Made by a program: the position numbers and the translations under genes. From Arctopsyche grandis (lineage: Eukaryota; Arthropoda; Insecta; Trichoptera; Hydropsychidae): DNA of 64,000 nucleotides. Position 1 is the first letter of the stretch; the number at the start of each line of letters is the position of its first letter. Location: assembly GCF_051622035.1 (NCBI RefSeq), contig NC_135360.1:10778001-10842000 (forward strand). Reading direction: 5' to 3'. The notes beneath the pieces were generated by a model that searched no databases, was not told the origin of the DNA, and saw nothing but the letters and a program-made list of their open reading frames with translations. This document shows positions 29,561-63,923 of this stretch, piece after piece.

Positions 29561-32500
29561 TTAACAAAATCCTCCAAAACTCACTGATGATGCATCTGCT
29601 GCTGCATTTTTATGAATATGATCGAGAACGTGAGAACTGAGATACGTTGGCATGTTAGCTGCGTTTTGAATCGATGCTGGCCCGTATCCGTTATAGTACG
29701 CCGAATAGTTTGGGGGAGGTGCGGTGGGAGGGTAGCCCCCACCAGGTCCGTATTGTTGCGCTGGAAGGCCAGGATAACCCGAATGGGGATGATACGCCGA
29801 CAGGGCTTCGGGCAAATATCCCGGGGTGGGTCGCATCAGTTGGCCATAAGGACTACCAGGATATCCAACAAAGCTGCCCGCAGCTAGTGCCGATGAATAC
29901 CCATTGTTGGAAACCGGTGGTGGACCATATGGTGTAGGTTGATATGGTGAATATGGGCTATATAAGGGCGGGGCATGAGCAGCATAGGGGTTTTCGAGAG
30001 TAGGAACGGGTGCAGGTCCTGCATGTGGCGCTACCTCCGACGACAGAGCTGGTCCCCCATCTGCTATTGATGGTATCTGATCGACGAGTGACTCGAGGCC
30101 CGATAGGCTCTTAGAAGAGACGTCTTGCTGTTTAGTTGAAGTGGGGGAGGATTTCACTGGAGACCCATAATCAACCGGTTGAACTGGAAAATTTATTTTT
30201 ATATTATTTCAAGTTTTCAAAGTTTAAAATACAAATATGATGAAACTATTAATCGTTTAAAACATTAACCATTAGAACCCTGCGCCGATATTGACTGCGG
30301 TGATCCTTGTCCTCCATCCAATGGCAAGCCTCTGAAAGCACCGCCTCCCGACTGTGATGAGAAGGGAGATGGCTGACTGCCCCCAACCGATAAAGGATGA
30401 TGAGATGGAGGCGTTGATCCCATTCTATAAAATCAAAAAATAAAACTATCAAATAAAAACAATCCCAATACACGAGTCATCACTTAATCAAATTATACAT
30501 ACCTGTTGAACGGATTGCCATACATGGAAGAGGCATGATGTGATAAAATTCCTGATCCTTCGCCTTGACGAGGGCTACCCCCCGGATCACCCGAATAGTT
30601 GCTAATTGAATATCCTCCAGGTCCGACGCCTAATCTTTCGTGTTGACTTGAAATGCTAGCAACGCTGGCATTGTCAACATCGCGGGGAGAATTTCTGGGA
30701 ACATTTGACAGATCTGCAGCAACTGGTGTCGCAGTTCCATACGAAGAATTAGCAGATCCACTGGGGGTCGGCACTTGAAAGCCGAGTCTCGGTTCGTTCG
30801 AAACAGGCGATTGCGCTTCGTTTGAATTGGGTTGATTATTATACATGGAGTTTCCATAATTTCTGCTTAAATCTAAATTTCCTTTAGATGAATCCATTGT
30901 GGTGGGTATTGGCGATGATGTGTTCGATGATGATGATGGCCCAATTAGGTTTAATGCAGAGTGTCGATTTTGCGAACTGTGCTGACGATTTGAAGACATT
31001 TGGAGTAACGGATTAGCACAAGTGTCCATTAAGTCGTTGCTGTCGTGTGACGATGCGTGACTGACGTCTCCCATCGCGGTGAGAGCGGCTTCAGGATTAA
31101 TTGATTGATTATTCTGTCTCAAATCGTTCGCCGACATTTGATCACCACCTGGACTTGTTCTTTGACTAACACTACGAGTAGAACTATTAGTTTCATTTTC
31201 CTGTACATGCATTTGGTTATCCAAAATTGGTGGTTCAAAGTCTATATGCCCTATACTAGGGCTGGCAGGTCCTGGCGAGGATATGGCAGCTGATATTTCA
31301 CTTGACAATTCAGTGTGATATTGTGACATATTGTTTCCTGATGGATTCATCGACATATTTTGAGGAGGACTATGTGAATACACAGGATTGTGTCTCGACT
31401 GGCTTTGATGTATTGGACTCTGACCATAAACAGGATGATGAGGGAGATTGTGAGAAGTCTGGAGTGGTACAGGAGAATATGGATGACTTCTTGAATGCAT
31501 TGGACTATGTTGATATGATTGTGAAGGTGGAATTGGAGACTGAGAATAAATATTATTTTGAGGTAAAGGAGACTGAGAGTATGGGTGGGGAGGATTTCCT
31601 TGTTGAGCAGGACTTAATTGAGGATATGATGCTCCTTGGGATAGTGGAGATTGTGGATTAAAAGAGTGACCTATGGAAGCAGGAGACCTACAAGCGTACG
31701 CTAAAGATTGCGATGCTGGACTTTGTGAAAATCCTTGTCCTTGTGGTACTGGTGATTGCGGATAAGGATGTGGCATATTAGCAGGACTTTGAACAAACAT
31801 AGGACTCTGCTGAGAATATGTAGGCGTATTGTTTTGTGGAGCAGGCGATCTAGAGTAAGAATGACCTTGCAATGGACTAGCTTGAGAATAATTATGATTT
31901 TGGCTATGGGGCCTCAATGGAGGACTTTGAGAATATTGCGAAGGATTTTGAGGTACTGGAGATTGAGAATACGGATGAGGAGTCTGTCCAGAAACAGGAC
32001 TATTTGAAAAAGTCGGTGCCATTACTTGATGACGTTGAGGGCTCTGAGAGTAGCCAACAGGTCTTGGACTAGATCCATATCCAACACCATGAGGTCGTGG
32101 ACTTTGTGAAAATGGCCCAGGTGATTGCCCGTAGCCTGGTTGAGCTCGTTGCATATTTGCAAGATTTCCAGGTGTTCCTGGAGTGACATTTCCCAGTGGT
32201 TGGGGATTGTCTATTCCCGGAGATTGTATAGGTCCTGAGTTGACACTGTTATTTTGAAGTCCACCTTGAAAATATGGAGATGTTTCTGCCCCACTAGGAA
32301 CACCAGATAAATTTTGTGATTGACCTTGAACATTTCCTCCTGACGACATCGACTGATTTCCAGTTTGATTCAAATTATTTGGATACATTAATTGTGTTGG
32401 ATTTTCATGACTTAGATTCGACTGAGAATATTCACGATTAGAATGCAAATTTTGTTGATATTGATTATCCATACTTTGTTGTGATAGATTTAATGATTGA

Positions 32501-32563
32501 TTTAAAGGCATGTTAGGTAATGCTTGTGGTAAACTTGACTGAGTTGTTTGTTGTTGCTGTTGT

Positions 32564-32598
<35 letters not shown>

Positions 32599-32602
32599 TT
32601 GC

Positions 32603-32672
<70 letters not shown>

Positions 32673-35600
32673 GCTGCTGTTGTTGCTGCTGCTGTGCAAG
32701 ATATTGCTGTTCTTCTGGTCGAACTTTCTTAGGTCGTCCTCTTTTCTTTTTAGCTGGCTGTTCGCCATTTAAACAGTCTGGTTGTGGCTGTTTGGGAGCA
32801 CGAGGAGTTCGAGGAGTTGGAGGAGCCACTTCTCCATTTTCAAGTTTAATCTTCTTTGGCCTTCCTCTTTTTTTCTTAACAGGAACCTCTGTACCATCCT
32901 CCAAAACCATAGTTTCACAAGGCAGGTCGGGACCGATTAATCTGGAATTTTTACTTTTTTTTTATTGGCAACTTCGAGTTGATAAAATCTATATAAATAA
33001 TTAAAATAACTTAATATTGCATTATTAACAACCTCCTTATTTCTTGATCTTCTTGTGCTCGTCTGCAAGTCGTATCTGGGAATACCAGCTCTGAATCATC
33101 TACATGAGCCAATGCTCCATTCAAATAATCTCGGAAACGACGCAATGCTGAATAGAATGGGACCTTATCGGCAGCACGAGGCAACTGGGCACATCTTGCA
33201 CTGGATGATGGCATTACCCACATGTACTAATAAAAATATATAAATATTAGTTGATTTAAAAACAATTACATAATAAATTATTACTATACAATAGGTATGC
33301 ATGTATTTCGACTTACAGTGTTAGTTCCATGTACGGTATCAGGTTGACGTCCGAAACAGAAATCTTTTTTGCCAGAGAAGACTTCATATATCAATTTTCC
33401 ATTGAAAACTGCTATTTTAGGTCGAAACGTTTGTAATTTTTCCAGTAATACTTGACTTCCTTCTTTAATTTCTTTGCGAGTTAAATCAGCAGAACCTTTT
33501 GTCGCTCGTTGAACCATATTAGTAAATCCGATACCAAAATGTAATAGCTAAATAACAAATAATGGATTAGTTTCATACAAGTACATATATATTATTACAC
33601 ATCAAATAAGAATATATTCAAATAACCTTATAATCCTCATCAGCGCTCATCTGTTCCTGGGTTAGACCAGACAAATACAAACACTTCCAAAAATGATTTC
33701 CGGGACCAGCATAATGGTGTCCTTTATAAGCAGCAAAAAGACCGGGATTTATGCCAATCTGAAATTGAGAGAAAATTTATAATTTCACACAAAAACAACC
33801 GTTCGAATTATGTTAAAAAATAATAATAAAAATTTTGTTTCTACATCAACATGAAATTGAACCATACTCACAATGATGATATCTAAATTTTGAGCAAGAT
33901 GATCAGGTAATGTACGACGGCAAACTTCTTCTTCAGACATCCCATTAAAACGATCGTGCTTTTTACGCTCTTTAACAGGTTTTGCTAACGCCATAATTGG
34001 GACATTATCCAATCCTTCTTGTTTTATATCCAAACTAGAATATTAAAAATCAAAATAAACTTCACTTACTGAAGAAAATTAACTAATCTAAATCACAATA
34101 ACGATGAAGATGAAATTGAGAAAAAAATCTGCTAATGAAAAATTATTAAAAGCATAAATGTAAATACAAACCATTCATCCTTTATTTTCTTCTTTCTCCC
34201 TCGCTTTTTGGGCGCAGTCGGCATCATGTGTTGCGATACCATCATATCATTCTGAATATGGTTTCCTCCGGGAGGCAGCATTCCTGGATTACCTTGTCCG
34301 AGCATAGCACACATTGCCGCTTCTTCATCTACAAAACTATACGGATCTTCCGAGCACTCTCTTTTAATTCCGTTATATGAAAGCATATCAGGATCGTGCT
34401 CCCTTTTAACACCACCGGCAAACGTGTGTTGCATGTAAGGGTCGCATTTCATAGCATACGGATTTTGATCTCGCTTTATTCCACCAAATCCACCATACTG
34501 CATTTCATCTTTATAATTATTCATAAACATCTCCTCAGGACGTTTGTATCGGGCGTATGGATCCATATCTCTACAATATGGATCGTCCCTTTTGAAATGA
34601 TTGTAAGGATCGTGACCAGTTGCACTCATGTCATAAGGCTCTCTTTTAATGCCGCCAAACGGCATTTCCGGCCCTCTCACTTGCATGTACGGCTGAGGTA
34701 ATCTGTTTTTTAAATCATATGGATTCATTTGATCGCCCCTTCCAATGTTAGGATTGGGAGGGTACGATTGCGACTGGGAAGAACTGTCCTCCTGATGCAG
34801 CGGAAGCATGTGGCCTTGCACTGCTTCGCCGCTATCGAAAGGAAGATTCTGCTGTCGAGGAACTCCCAACGATGAATTAGACCTCGAGTTTGACGGACAT
34901 GGAGACGATGGTAAGTTATCTCTTGACACGCTGGATTCATCTGCGTTTGAAGGTTCGTTTAATCTTTTAGGTGAGTTTGACGCCGAATTCAAACCGTCCA
35001 TTCTAGTTTCTCCATCTCTTTCCATTGCATCGGGGAAAGGGAGATCGGTCTCGTCCTGATTCTCCATCGCCTTGTCTGCACAATCTTTCACTTCTGTATC
35101 TACTGTCACATCACACTTATTATCCGTTTCACTTTCACAAGCAACCGTCTCGGTATCACCCATGTTTGCTACGGACACGTCAGATTCACTTTTATCACTT
35201 ATTTTGTCTTCCACAGGCGCGGCAGGCTCTTGGGGAACCTCCTTGGGAGAGCACTGCTCTGCAGACTTGGGGCTGGGTTCTGCCTCGCACTCGGGTGCCG
35301 GGGAAGGTTGTTTGATTTCGGCAGGCTGCGGTTCCGCTTCCAACGATTTCTGCTGAACGCCATCGCCACTAGTCTCGTAACCGTCGTCCTGGACATCCTG
35401 CGGTCTCGCATCTCCCTGAAGGGGCACGCCTCTGAAAACATCAAAAAACGTAACGTTAAATTACAAAGCGTAACATAAAAACGAAAGGAAATCTAAAAAT
35501 AAGCAAAAAACGATAAACAATACGACACAACGTTTGTCGAAGATAATTTGCATCGTATCTACAACTGCGCTACGTTTAATTTAGTCATCGTTGTACATCA

Positions 35601-38600
35601 GGGGTATTCAAATTACACCACACACACATGCTGTATTCATATTCATAGACTCCACCAATACGAACAATGTAAAAATTCCATTCAAAATACGGCCAGAAAG
35701 TCACTATTTATATTAACATACATTTGAGGAATACAATGACATTCTATTAAAAAACTTCAGCAAATAAATTAAACCAGTTTGTCTGAGATAAAAATCAACT
35801 AGTCATCCTCATTTATATTGTATAGTATATCATCAATGCCACATTATTAGTTCCCTTATGAAGGCTACTGTGTACTTCATTCTGTCCAGAGGTAGTTCAG
35901 CTGTAATTTGCATATTGCACTAATATTATTTATTTATTTTATGGCATATATGTAAACACATCCCAGCGAGGCCCAAGTGGTAGGGAGTAGATCATTAATT
36001 CCACTCCAACAAGTATTCCATTTATGATGATAATGATGAGCGCGGGCTACTAGACGATAAATTACTTCAATAAGAAGACAAGACATCTTCATAGTAAAAT
36101 TTCCGGCTTCTTCGAACATATACATAGATAGAAGAGATCCAGATAGTTTGGAAAGACTAATTGTGACTGGACTTGGGGAAGGTGTATTCGATGGACCAGA
36201 CAGGTCCAAGTCGCTAATGGCTCTTCTATAACTAAAGCCATTAGGCTAGCTGAATGTCGAGAAAGATGGAGACTAGCAATGAGACAATGAGATCACGACC
36301 CTCTGCACAGAGGATAATGACTCGAAACAAGATAACACAATACTATTGTGCTCTTTTATACTACATGTATAGAAATATCTACTCAATCAGTACTATTCAT
36401 ATTTGTAACGAAACCCTTCTAACCGTACGCTAAAAATGTTTTATTTAAATGTACTCATGAAGAAATGTTTTTAAAGAACGTAAAATTATTTGCCAAATCA
36501 ACATCACACAATTTGTTACTTAATTAGTTACATGTTGACTTTAACAATTCAAATTAACTAGTTTGTCGTGTCGAAGAACAATTTATGATCTTAAACTGAG
36601 GTATAGAATTTTAAACACATCTGTTTTAGGGGAGATAAACTTCAGTGTTAAGATCATAAATACTAAATCAATACAGTGTATGACAACAATATAACAATGC
36701 AATTGCCAAGACTTGTGTCCTTCACGACAGTATAAAAACGCACCTTTACATTTACTTTCAGAGCTAAATTAAAGACACAGATAAATTGTCTTTCTACTTA
36801 ACAATTGTCTTTTTTTGTGTACTATGTGTATGTATTTAAACACATAGTACCAGTGGCGTAGCCAGGATTTTGTCTAGGGGGGGTTTTGACAGGAAAAAAG
36901 GCAAGATAATTTATATTTAATTAATATAATATCACAACATATAAAAATAAAGTAAATAAGTAATAAACTTAATAAACTTAAAATAAAAATAATGAATACT
37001 TTAAAAAAGTACGAAATTCACAGATCCAATCTTCGCGTATTTATCTAATATTTTTTCTGCACTAAAATTTATATCCCTATGAATATCTAATAAAGCAAGT
37101 CCATTTAGTCGATTTTCCGACATCGTATTTCTTAAATATGTTTTTAGTCATCGTAGTGTGGAGAAGCTCCGTTCACTTGTGGCTGTTGTCACCGGAAGTG
37201 TTGCTAGAATTTTTAGAGGTATGTAAATATTGAAGGATTGCAAATTGCAATTGCAGCTAGTGCGTTTTTTGGTCGATTTTCACTAGTACTTATATATTGC
37301 CACCACATTTCCAACTCTCCAGTTAGAACGCAAGGCCCACAAAATATATCTTGGTTGTAAATTTCCCTCGAAGTCTTTATCTTATTTTTTAAAACACTTG
37401 ATGGTTGAGAGCTTTTTCCATCAGGAAGCAAACATTGGAAATTTTCAAGTATATGTTTACGTCCTAAAAATCTGTCATGGATTTGGGATAGAAAACTATC
37501 CAAAAATGGTACAAACGATCAATTGCGACAGGAGTGGGATATTTTGCCACCGACTGCACTCCGCCAAGGGGGGGTCCAGACCCCCTGGACCCCCCCTCCT
37601 TCGCTACGCCACTGCATAGTACATTCTATTATTAAATGCTAGCAATCATGCTATAAACTTAATTCATTTCATTGTAGTTTTTTCCTCATGCTTGTACGTT
37701 TGAATTATTTTTTATTTATTTATTTATTTTTTATTTTATTAATTGAAAAATCAACAGACAGGATGTACATAGATATGTATAAAAAAACAAATAGTAAATA
37801 AATAATATATGTAACATCCGAGTCCAATAATAGATTTTTACAAAAATGAAAAAGATAAATATAAGGAAAACAAATTAAAAAGTAAAGAATAAAGGCATGA
37901 CAAAATATGTAGAACATTGCATAATTAAACTATAGTATTAAAATATTTGGAAAAGGTTATAAAATAGAATATACGAAGAAATTGAAATTTACAAATATAA
38001 AACAAATGAAAAAGGTAAATACAAAATAAACAAATGAAAAGGAAAAGAATGAAAGCTATAATATGATTAAATAGCACATTACATAACTAAACTAAAGTAT
38101 AAAAATATTGGAAATATTGGAAAAATAGAATAGGAGAAGAAATGAATCAATCGGTCAAGATTCTCTTGATGTTAGACCTGAATTGATGTAGGGAAATACC
38201 AAATAGATCAACCTCATTCAGCTCTCCGTTAAACATACGATAAACGCGCTGCAGATAAAAATATTTTTGGGAATTAGTATTGAAAGGATCAAGTGAAAAG
38301 AGTGCAACGCGTCTAGAGTACCGAACTGGGATTCTGAAATTAACCTTATTCAGTAAATCAGAACAATCAAGGAAACCATTTATGAGCTTAAAGAAGAATA
38401 TAGCATCAGTATGTCGTCGCCTGACAGAAAGATTGTTAAAAGAAAGGATTTTAAAAATGTAATTAAATAAATAAATAAACTCATCAACAATATTTTCTCA
38501 TATTTGAGTTCGGGCACTTGAGAACGTTTGCAGAACCTAGATTGAAGATGGTGATAAAGCAGTAATGACTCTGATTAAAAAAAAACCCCACCACAGACCG

Positions 38601-62527: not shown

Positions 62528-63923
62528 ATGGAACCATGTCGACTGTGTATGAAGATAGCACAGAATCCGACATTCCACCTTATTTTCGACGATGACTCTG
62601 ACACGTTGCTAAAAATACTCACATGTTTACCATTACGCGTAAGATTTTATATTTATGCGTTTTTATAAAAAGTTCCTAAAGTGAAATACAATTTATTTAT
62701 ATAAAAAGGCTTATTTATAATTGGTCATTAAAATTTTAAATTATAGATGCACATTTTATTTTGTTTCAGTTGTCAAAAGGAGATGGCTTACCAAATAAGA
62801 TTTGCAGTATTTGTTTTCACAAAGTTAATGATTTCTATTGTTTCCGCAATAAAGCAGTAGATTCAGAAAATTCGTAAGATATTTTTAGAGCGATAATATT
62901 TAATTATAATGTATGTGTGTATGTTCTACTGTGTAATAAAATCTTGTCCTGTAGGTTAAATGATTTACATGGTTTGCAACACAATAAGGGTAGTCAAATT
63001 CAGGACAAGATGGAGTCTGAACCATGCAAGTGGATATTTGACGAAGGGAATACAACGTTAAGATTGCCATTAAAACATGAACCACTCGTGCAAATCACAC
63101 CACCGAAGCATTTCAATTCAGTTTGTACACAAACTGAAGATTTTCCTACTCTATTTAAATTAACAGATATCAAAGAAGAAATAGTCGAAAGTGTGATGTG
63201 CGGTAGAGATGACTATGAAGAGTTACCAATGTTTAAAAATGAACCATTGACTGATGATAGCAAAGACATTGTTTTAAATGCTGAACAAATAGAATTTTCC
63301 AATCCTGAGAATATAATATGTGCTTCTGTTTCGTATAACTTTTCAAATGAATATCGAAAGAGTAAGAAATCACCCAAAACCAAAATCAAAATTAAAAAAC
63401 ACGCTCGTAAATCTAGTGGCGATATTAATTCAATCGACGCAGACAATTTAATTGCTAAACCTGATATTTTGCAAAGTGAAGATGCTGCAACCGATGAAAT
63501 TTGGATGTGTTGTGTTTGCTTTAAAAAATTCAAAAAAAGGGGAGACATTTTAAAACACTACAAGTTTGTGCTGTTGTTCTTTTTTTACATAAAATGTTAA
63601 TTCAATTTAAATGACATTCTTTGTGTTATTTTAAGGTCACACTGTAATGAAGCATATAATATGCAATCTATTTCTCTGGTTGATGGAAGAAGAAAAGAAG
63701 TTTTCAATTGTACAGTGTGTAATCAGGTTATTGCCAAATATTGTATAATTCAAATTATTCTCTATAGTCTGACGACAGCTTAATAATATTACTATCTCTT
63801 TGCAGACCTTTGATTCAAAGCACGCTTTTAAAACTCATTTTGCGATTCATAATAATGGCAAACAATATAAGTGCTCCCTTTGTGAAAAAACTTTCAAAAC
63901 ACCAGTAGAAATTTTAAAACACG
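62528..63923 (+). CDS. ZAD C2H2 zinc-finger protein, 3' end beyond the window
   Basis: Five exons are visible: 62528-62638, 62770-62873, 62955-63563, 63636-63726 and 63806-63923. They join in frame (344 codons plus one base), and the last donor (CACG|GTTCG) shows that the gene continues past the window. Residues 1-72 form a ZAD: MEPCRLCMKIAQNPTFHLIF opens it, with Cys4, Cys7, Cys49 and Cys52 (CSIC) as the zinc ligands. ZADs mediate dimerisation in arthropod zinc-finger proteins. A long acidic linker (73-250) has a basic stretch, KSKKSPKTKIKIKKHARKSS, probably a nuclear localisation signal. Zinc finger 1 starts at Cys257 (CCVCFKKFKKRGDILKHYKS), finger 2 is FNCTVCNQTFDSKHAFKTHF and finger 3 YKCSLCEKTFKTPVEILKH. 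It is most likely a sequence-specific nuclear DNA-binding regulator; target unknown. The ATG is inferred from the ZAD start. The donor after exon 4 (CAG|GTTATT) is weak but required by finger 2. Confidence 0.9.

Follow-up and report, generated by a model that had tools for sequence, protein, structure and literature searches.

We detected a dense array of SUMO-type lysine motifs in the N-terminal arm of a TDG-type glycosylase encoded in the analysed window, a 64,000-nucleotide stretch of the Arctopsyche grandis genome. Based on the motifs, their placement and the domain that follows them, we propose that this segment may be a multi-site SUMO-acceptor arm, taking the place of the single C-terminal site of human TDG, and we put the probability of this reading at about 0.55. 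A four-site, strictly N-terminal version of the idea had been suggested by a first, sequence-only reading of the same DNA. Its core agrees with the motif make-up, the predicted disorder and the non-random placement described below, while the number of sites and their confinement to the N-terminal side had to be corrected.

The gene and its catalytic domain

The TDG-type gene lies on the minus strand, where six exons join in frame to give a partial protein of 1475 residues (Thd1). The 5' exon was not located, and residue 1 is throughout the first whole codon of the exon 35431-34172, which holds the N-terminal arm and the entire lysine array. The exons and the domain are as follows.

35431-34172, minus strand: exon, partial residues 1-420; open frame with an AG acceptor and a GT donor, in-frame join
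34034-33872, minus strand: exon
33758-33627, minus strand: exon
33547-33317, minus strand: exon
33226-33033, minus strand: exon
32941 to the stop at 30493, minus strand: C-terminal exon
33155..33904, minus strand: UDG-superfamily catalytic domain, residues 464-619, with three internal introns (coordinates from the exon table)

The catalytic domain matches PF03167 in Pfam (E 1.3e-18; 67.9 bits against a cut-off of 24.3), and a search of PDB chains gave human TDG as its closest solved relative (best chain E 8.3e-73). In the alignment, the GINPG of Thd1 pairs with the GINPG of human TDG, which we take to be the active-site motif of the TDG/MUG branch. On these sequence grounds Thd1 is assigned to the TDG/MUG branch of the uracil-DNA glycosylase superfamily, and the name Thd1, given to the gene in the first reading and used for the fly TDG orthologue (PMC9584883), is sound at the family level. 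Searches for relatives by tblastn, with the catalytic domain and with the array, in viral and prokaryote contigs returned none, as expected for an animal gene.

Thd1 is considerably longer than its human counterpart, with at least 1475 residues and AT-hook-like, polyglutamine and SQSP regions compared with the 410 residues of human TDG (PMC11602971). The C-terminal exon contains a CAA/CAG tract at 32543-32685 that is translated into polyglutamine (TRF: 47 copies of a 3-mer, plus-strand unit GTT) and that directly follows two AT-hook-like KKKRGRPKK patches. The C-terminal 735 residues (30493-32941, minus strand) hold 10 [YFH]SxSP and 15 QSP words, for which the shuffle means are 0.24 and 2.6, respectively, and neither count was reached in 2000 shuffles; by eye, these SQSP-type words resemble a degenerate RNA polymerase II CTD repeat. 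Besides, a Pro/Tyr/Gly-rich ORF at 29561-30208 (minus strand), which has no Pfam match, may be a further 3' exon of Thd1. The interval 36850-37600 looks by eye like transposon remains, and its minus-strand ORF at 37213-37518 is likewise without a Pfam match.

Lysine motifs of the N-terminal arm

Translation of the minus strand confirmed the four motifs from which the SUMO idea started, GGIKRE, GGIKRD, GGVKRE and NGIKRE, with lysine codons at 34647-34645, 34476-34474, 34407-34405 and 34365-34363, all within or touching 34365-34650. The lysines numbered K268, K325, K348 and K362 in that reading are K262, K319, K342 and K356 here, and the five DPY words that it quoted are all present in the translated arm. 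The array is, however, bigger than it claimed, with seven of the nine lysines of the core fitting [VILMFY]Kx[ED]. Left out were FKRD (K280), MKCD (K328) and YKDE (K307) inside the array, and IKDE (K417) and IKQE (K424) between the array and the catalytic domain. The sites are listed below.

34321..34728, minus strand: core array, residues 235-370 (136 residues), with 9 lysines and 7 [DN]PY words
34630..34659, minus strand: cassette 1, 10 residues, K262; fits P-x(0,4)-[IV]KxE-x(0,3)-P and psiKxEP
34576..34605, minus strand: previously unlisted cassette, 10 residues, K280
34504..34515, minus strand: YKDE, K307, a weak fit (Tyr at -1)
34456..34488, minus strand: cassette, 11 residues, K319
34441..34452, minus strand: MKCD, K328, a weak fit
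34387..34419, minus strand: cassette, 11 residues, K342
34339..34377, minus strand: cassette, 13 residues, K356
34174..34185, minus strand: IKDE, K417, closing a basic KKRGRKKK patch
34016..34027, minus strand: IKQE, K424, ahead of the catalytic domain
32839..32850, minus strand: IKLE, K692, within a 13-residue C-terminal AT-hook-like patch

Four of the cassettes carry Gly at -2, giving G[IV]KR[ED], and the core lysines that do not fit the broader pattern are K241 and K296. The array was said to sit N-terminal to the domain instead of C-terminal to it; it does precede the domain, but one psiKxE site, IKLE at K692, lies on the C-terminal side, where it is the sole psiKx[ED] match of the partial protein. 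The AT_hook match at the K692 patch falls under its Pfam cut-off (E 0.062).

The arm is predicted to be a disordered segment. FoldIndex gave -0.20 for the array and +0.11 for the catalytic domain, and AlphaFold, run on the single sequence with no alignment, gave a pLDDT below 50 at 374 of the 442 residues of the exon ORF and predicted no secondary structure in the arm. The single AlphaFold helix, at ORF residues 429-441, consists almost wholly of intron read-through and was rejected as an artefact of the ORF submitted. Searches of Pfam and of PDB chains with the core array had no hits at E values up to 10; a TSP1_ADAMTS match obtained with the whole exon was at chance level (E 5.6) and was discarded. 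Thus, the psi-K-x-[E/D] consensus of SUMO substrates is found in the Thd1 arm within a segment predicted to be disordered.

The motifs are far more frequent than the composition of the core would give. When the residues of the core were shuffled 50,000 times, no shuffle reached the observed four G[IV]KR[ED] (mean 0.001), five KR[ED] (mean 0.115), six [VILMF]Kx[ED] (mean 0.303) or seven [DN]PY words (mean 0.207), and the three strict [VILMF]KxE sites (mean 0.13) were reached in 9 of 50,000. The limits of the core had been set after the motifs were seen, and the whole 1475-residue partial protein was therefore shuffled as well. Its nine [VILMF]Kx[ED] sites (mean 0.96) were not reached in any of 3,000 shuffles, and the six sites of its densest 100 residues compare with a maximum that never exceeded three. 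Each of the nine core lysines has one of V, I, L, M, F and Y in front of it, against 10 of the 46 lysines in the rest of the partial protein (Fisher p 1.5e-05), and the full [VILMFY]Kx[ED] pattern occurs at seven of nine against three of 46 (Fisher p 1.9e-05), the three outside the core being IKDE (K417), IKQE (K424) and IKLE (K692). Isoleucine and valine are scarce in the core (six in 136 residues), and four of these six immediately precede a lysine.

The Thd1 exon also ranks first in the window when SUMO-type sites per about 100 amino acids are counted over the 252 stop-to-stop ORFs of at least 60 amino acids in six frames, most of which are not genes: the exon has six, the runner-up three, 25 ORFs one and 225 none. 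The runner-up, at 62878-63600 on the plus strand, contains LKHEP, IKEE and FKNEP, shows by eye what looks like the beginning of a zinc-finger-like CxxC arrangement and has no Pfam match. With a second ORF in the window carrying three such sites, SUMO-type clusters need not be special.

SUMO-site preferences and alternative readings

A synergy-control flanking rule, P-x(0,4)-[IV]KxE-x(0,3)-P, has been described for SUMO motifs. The strict pattern has one match in Thd1, K262, and a relaxed form allowing D for E and VILMF at -1 has three (K262, K280 and K328). Thd1 resembles the steroid receptors carrying such motifs in having psiKxE in the N-terminal part and a proline-flanked first cassette; it differs from them in its one strict match, in the Gly that precedes the motif in the four cassettes first listed, and in that the carrier is a DNA glycosylase and not a receptor. 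Among these receptors GR, a nuclear protein, has two psiKxE SUMO sites, located towards its N terminus (PMC3373386). MultiSUMOylation, with several sites per protein, usually affects flexible regions (PMC7915335), and Thd1 differs from the proteins described in its G-[IV]-K-R-[ED] cassette, repeated in alternation with [DN]PY words.

A survey of human SUMO sites published in 2026 found I and V at -1 enriched 2.23-fold and 2.02-fold, E at +2 enriched 3.91-fold, and G at -2 enriched more than 1.5-fold with an uneven trend; at +1 it lists Pro, and not Arg, as enriched (PMC13213312). The cassette G-[IV]-K-x-E therefore agrees with the human preferences at -2, -1 and +2, but its Arg at +1 does not. 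The same survey reports a 2.4-fold higher likelihood of sites in disordered regions, and in its best set the KxE type accounts for 29% and the KxD type for 6.3% of sites (PMC13213312). With KxD at only 6.3%, K280, K319 and K328 are the weaker candidates, and the two percentages together imply that a match to the consensus is neither proof of modification nor required for it. A limited search of open papers found, among the titles and abstract openings listed, none on SUMO modification of an insect TDG.

The arm could also serve as a SUMO-independent, multivalent partner-binding repeat, approximately [FIV]-K-R-[ED] followed by [DN]-P-Y within a few residues, or as a set of aromatic and basic condensation stickers, a reading that we consider rather unlikely. 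The seven [DN]PY words, which are outside any SUMO consensus, depart from chance as clearly as the lysine words do, and Arg stands at +1 in five of the seven fitting core lysines, where human SUMO sites favour Pro (PMC13213312). On the other hand, the spacing of the words is irregular, the core has no family or chain match, as noted above, and K307 and K328, which lie outside the KR[ED] cassettes yet have a hydrophobic or aromatic residue at -1 and an acidic one at +2, are left unexplained. In the multi-site SUMO reading, the [DN]PY words probably serve to space the motifs with aromatic residues, or else form a second element for binding.

The codons of the repeats bear on their origin. TRF returned no rows at score 30 for a tandem repeat in 34000-35500, and a recent tandem duplication was on this ground rejected as the origin of the array. 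For the five KR[ED] cassettes, 60 comparisons of codons over six columns comprised 14 identical, 23 synonymous and 23 with another residue, so that codons differ in 23 of the 37 comparisons between like residues, a level not scaled to codon usage; the seven [DN]PY words gave 21 identical, 32 synonymous and 10 with another residue in 63 comparisons. IKRE is encoded by the same 12 bases at K262 and K356, and hence the array may in part be of recent origin. The mixed codons elsewhere are consistent with ancient duplications that selection has maintained, or with words that became alike independently, and are not proof of selection.

Neutral drift, in which old internal duplications persist in a disordered, low-complexity arm with lysines of no use, is in our view improbable. 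The predicted disorder and the 12 bases shared by K262 and K356 would suit it, as would a C-terminal exon whose polyglutamine and SQSP-type repeats imply that the gene tolerates repeats. Against it stand the absence of a tandem repeat at the DNA level, the persistence of the words while their codons differ, and the lysines outside the cassettes that also fit the motif.

Acetylation of the lysines, or switching between acetyl and SUMO, appears the least likely: the GG-[IV]-K-R context is similar to the histone H4 lysine words GGAKR and GGVKR, and K262 fits psiKxEP, the form described for SUMO/acetyl switches, but psiKxEP has this single match in the partial protein, and acetylation does not require the acidic residue at +2. 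The disordered regions of human TDG do bear acetylation sites (PMC11602971).

Comparison with human TDG and a possible mode of action

In human TDG, the only sumoylation site is reported to be K330, which lies in the disordered region at the C terminus (PMC11602971; K330 also in PMC3040724). The SUMO on K330 binds a SIM within its own molecule (residues 308-311), and the 2024 paper describing this concludes that sumoylation impairs productive substrate binding through the intramolecular SUMO-SIM contact, with the E310Q substitution largely rescuing activity (PMC11602971). The human site is thus single and C-terminal, as had been assumed, but its effect goes beyond the control of product release to which it had been ascribed, since productive substrate binding is impaired (PMC11602971).

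Human residue numbers were assigned by counting through the alignment to 1wyw_A, and the positions so obtained carry the residues that PMC11602971 names. This alignment stops at AQED, about six residues short of K330, and ungapped counting onward places K330 on I662 of Thd1. Thd1 has no lysine in residues 616 to 682 and so differs from human TDG in having no K330-type psiKxE acceptor just C-terminal to the domain. The contrast with the human enzyme is therefore stronger than the first reading claimed. Where human TDG has one acceptor, Thd1 has several candidate acceptors, mostly N-terminal, plus IKLE further C-terminal.

The SUMO-docking surface of human TDG comprises F279, P280, R281, D284, V308-V311 and F315 (PMC11602971). 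In the 1wyw_A alignment P280, R281, D284 and E310 are identical in Thd1, whereas F279, V308, Q309, V311 and F315 are replaced by L, D, S, L and D, respectively, the D at F315 adjoining an alignment gap. The Thd1 segment aligned at E310 of the SIM is the following.

33080..33091, minus strand: ELVF, residues 641-644, with E aligned to human E310 of the SIM (alignment to 1wyw_A)

Judged from the aligned residues, the human-type docking surface is kept only in part, and the identity at P280, R281 and D284 could have other structural causes. Three SIM patterns, following PMC3395311 for the first two and part of the third, had no match in the partial protein, and the matches of two looser patterns were confined to the catalytic domain and residue 1323, with none at ELVF.

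If the arm is a multi-site SUMO acceptor, Ubc9 would conjugate SUMO to one or more of its lysines, and the SUMO, carried on a long flexible arm, could reach the docking surface of the catalytic domain in the same chain or in a neighbouring one, where docking would lower productive DNA binding. As an alternative to docking, the arm SUMO might recruit chromatin partners that bear a SIM. With several acceptors, the response would be graded by their number rather than all-or-none. A more far-reaching version, which we advance tentatively and consider less probable, is a lineage-specific relocated TDG switch, in which five to nine N-terminal acceptors would approach that docking surface from the opposite side, act as a rheostat and serve also as a SUMO-rich chromatin tether.

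The control of TDG by SUMO has been described as a paradigm for how sumoylation regulates enzymes (PMC11602971), and it has been worked out on one human lysine. A TDG relative that has no lysine at the K330 position and carries an array on the opposite side of the domain would tell whether it is the position of SUMO or its mere presence that matters, and such an array-bearing relative would allow the evolution of the SUMO switch to be tested.
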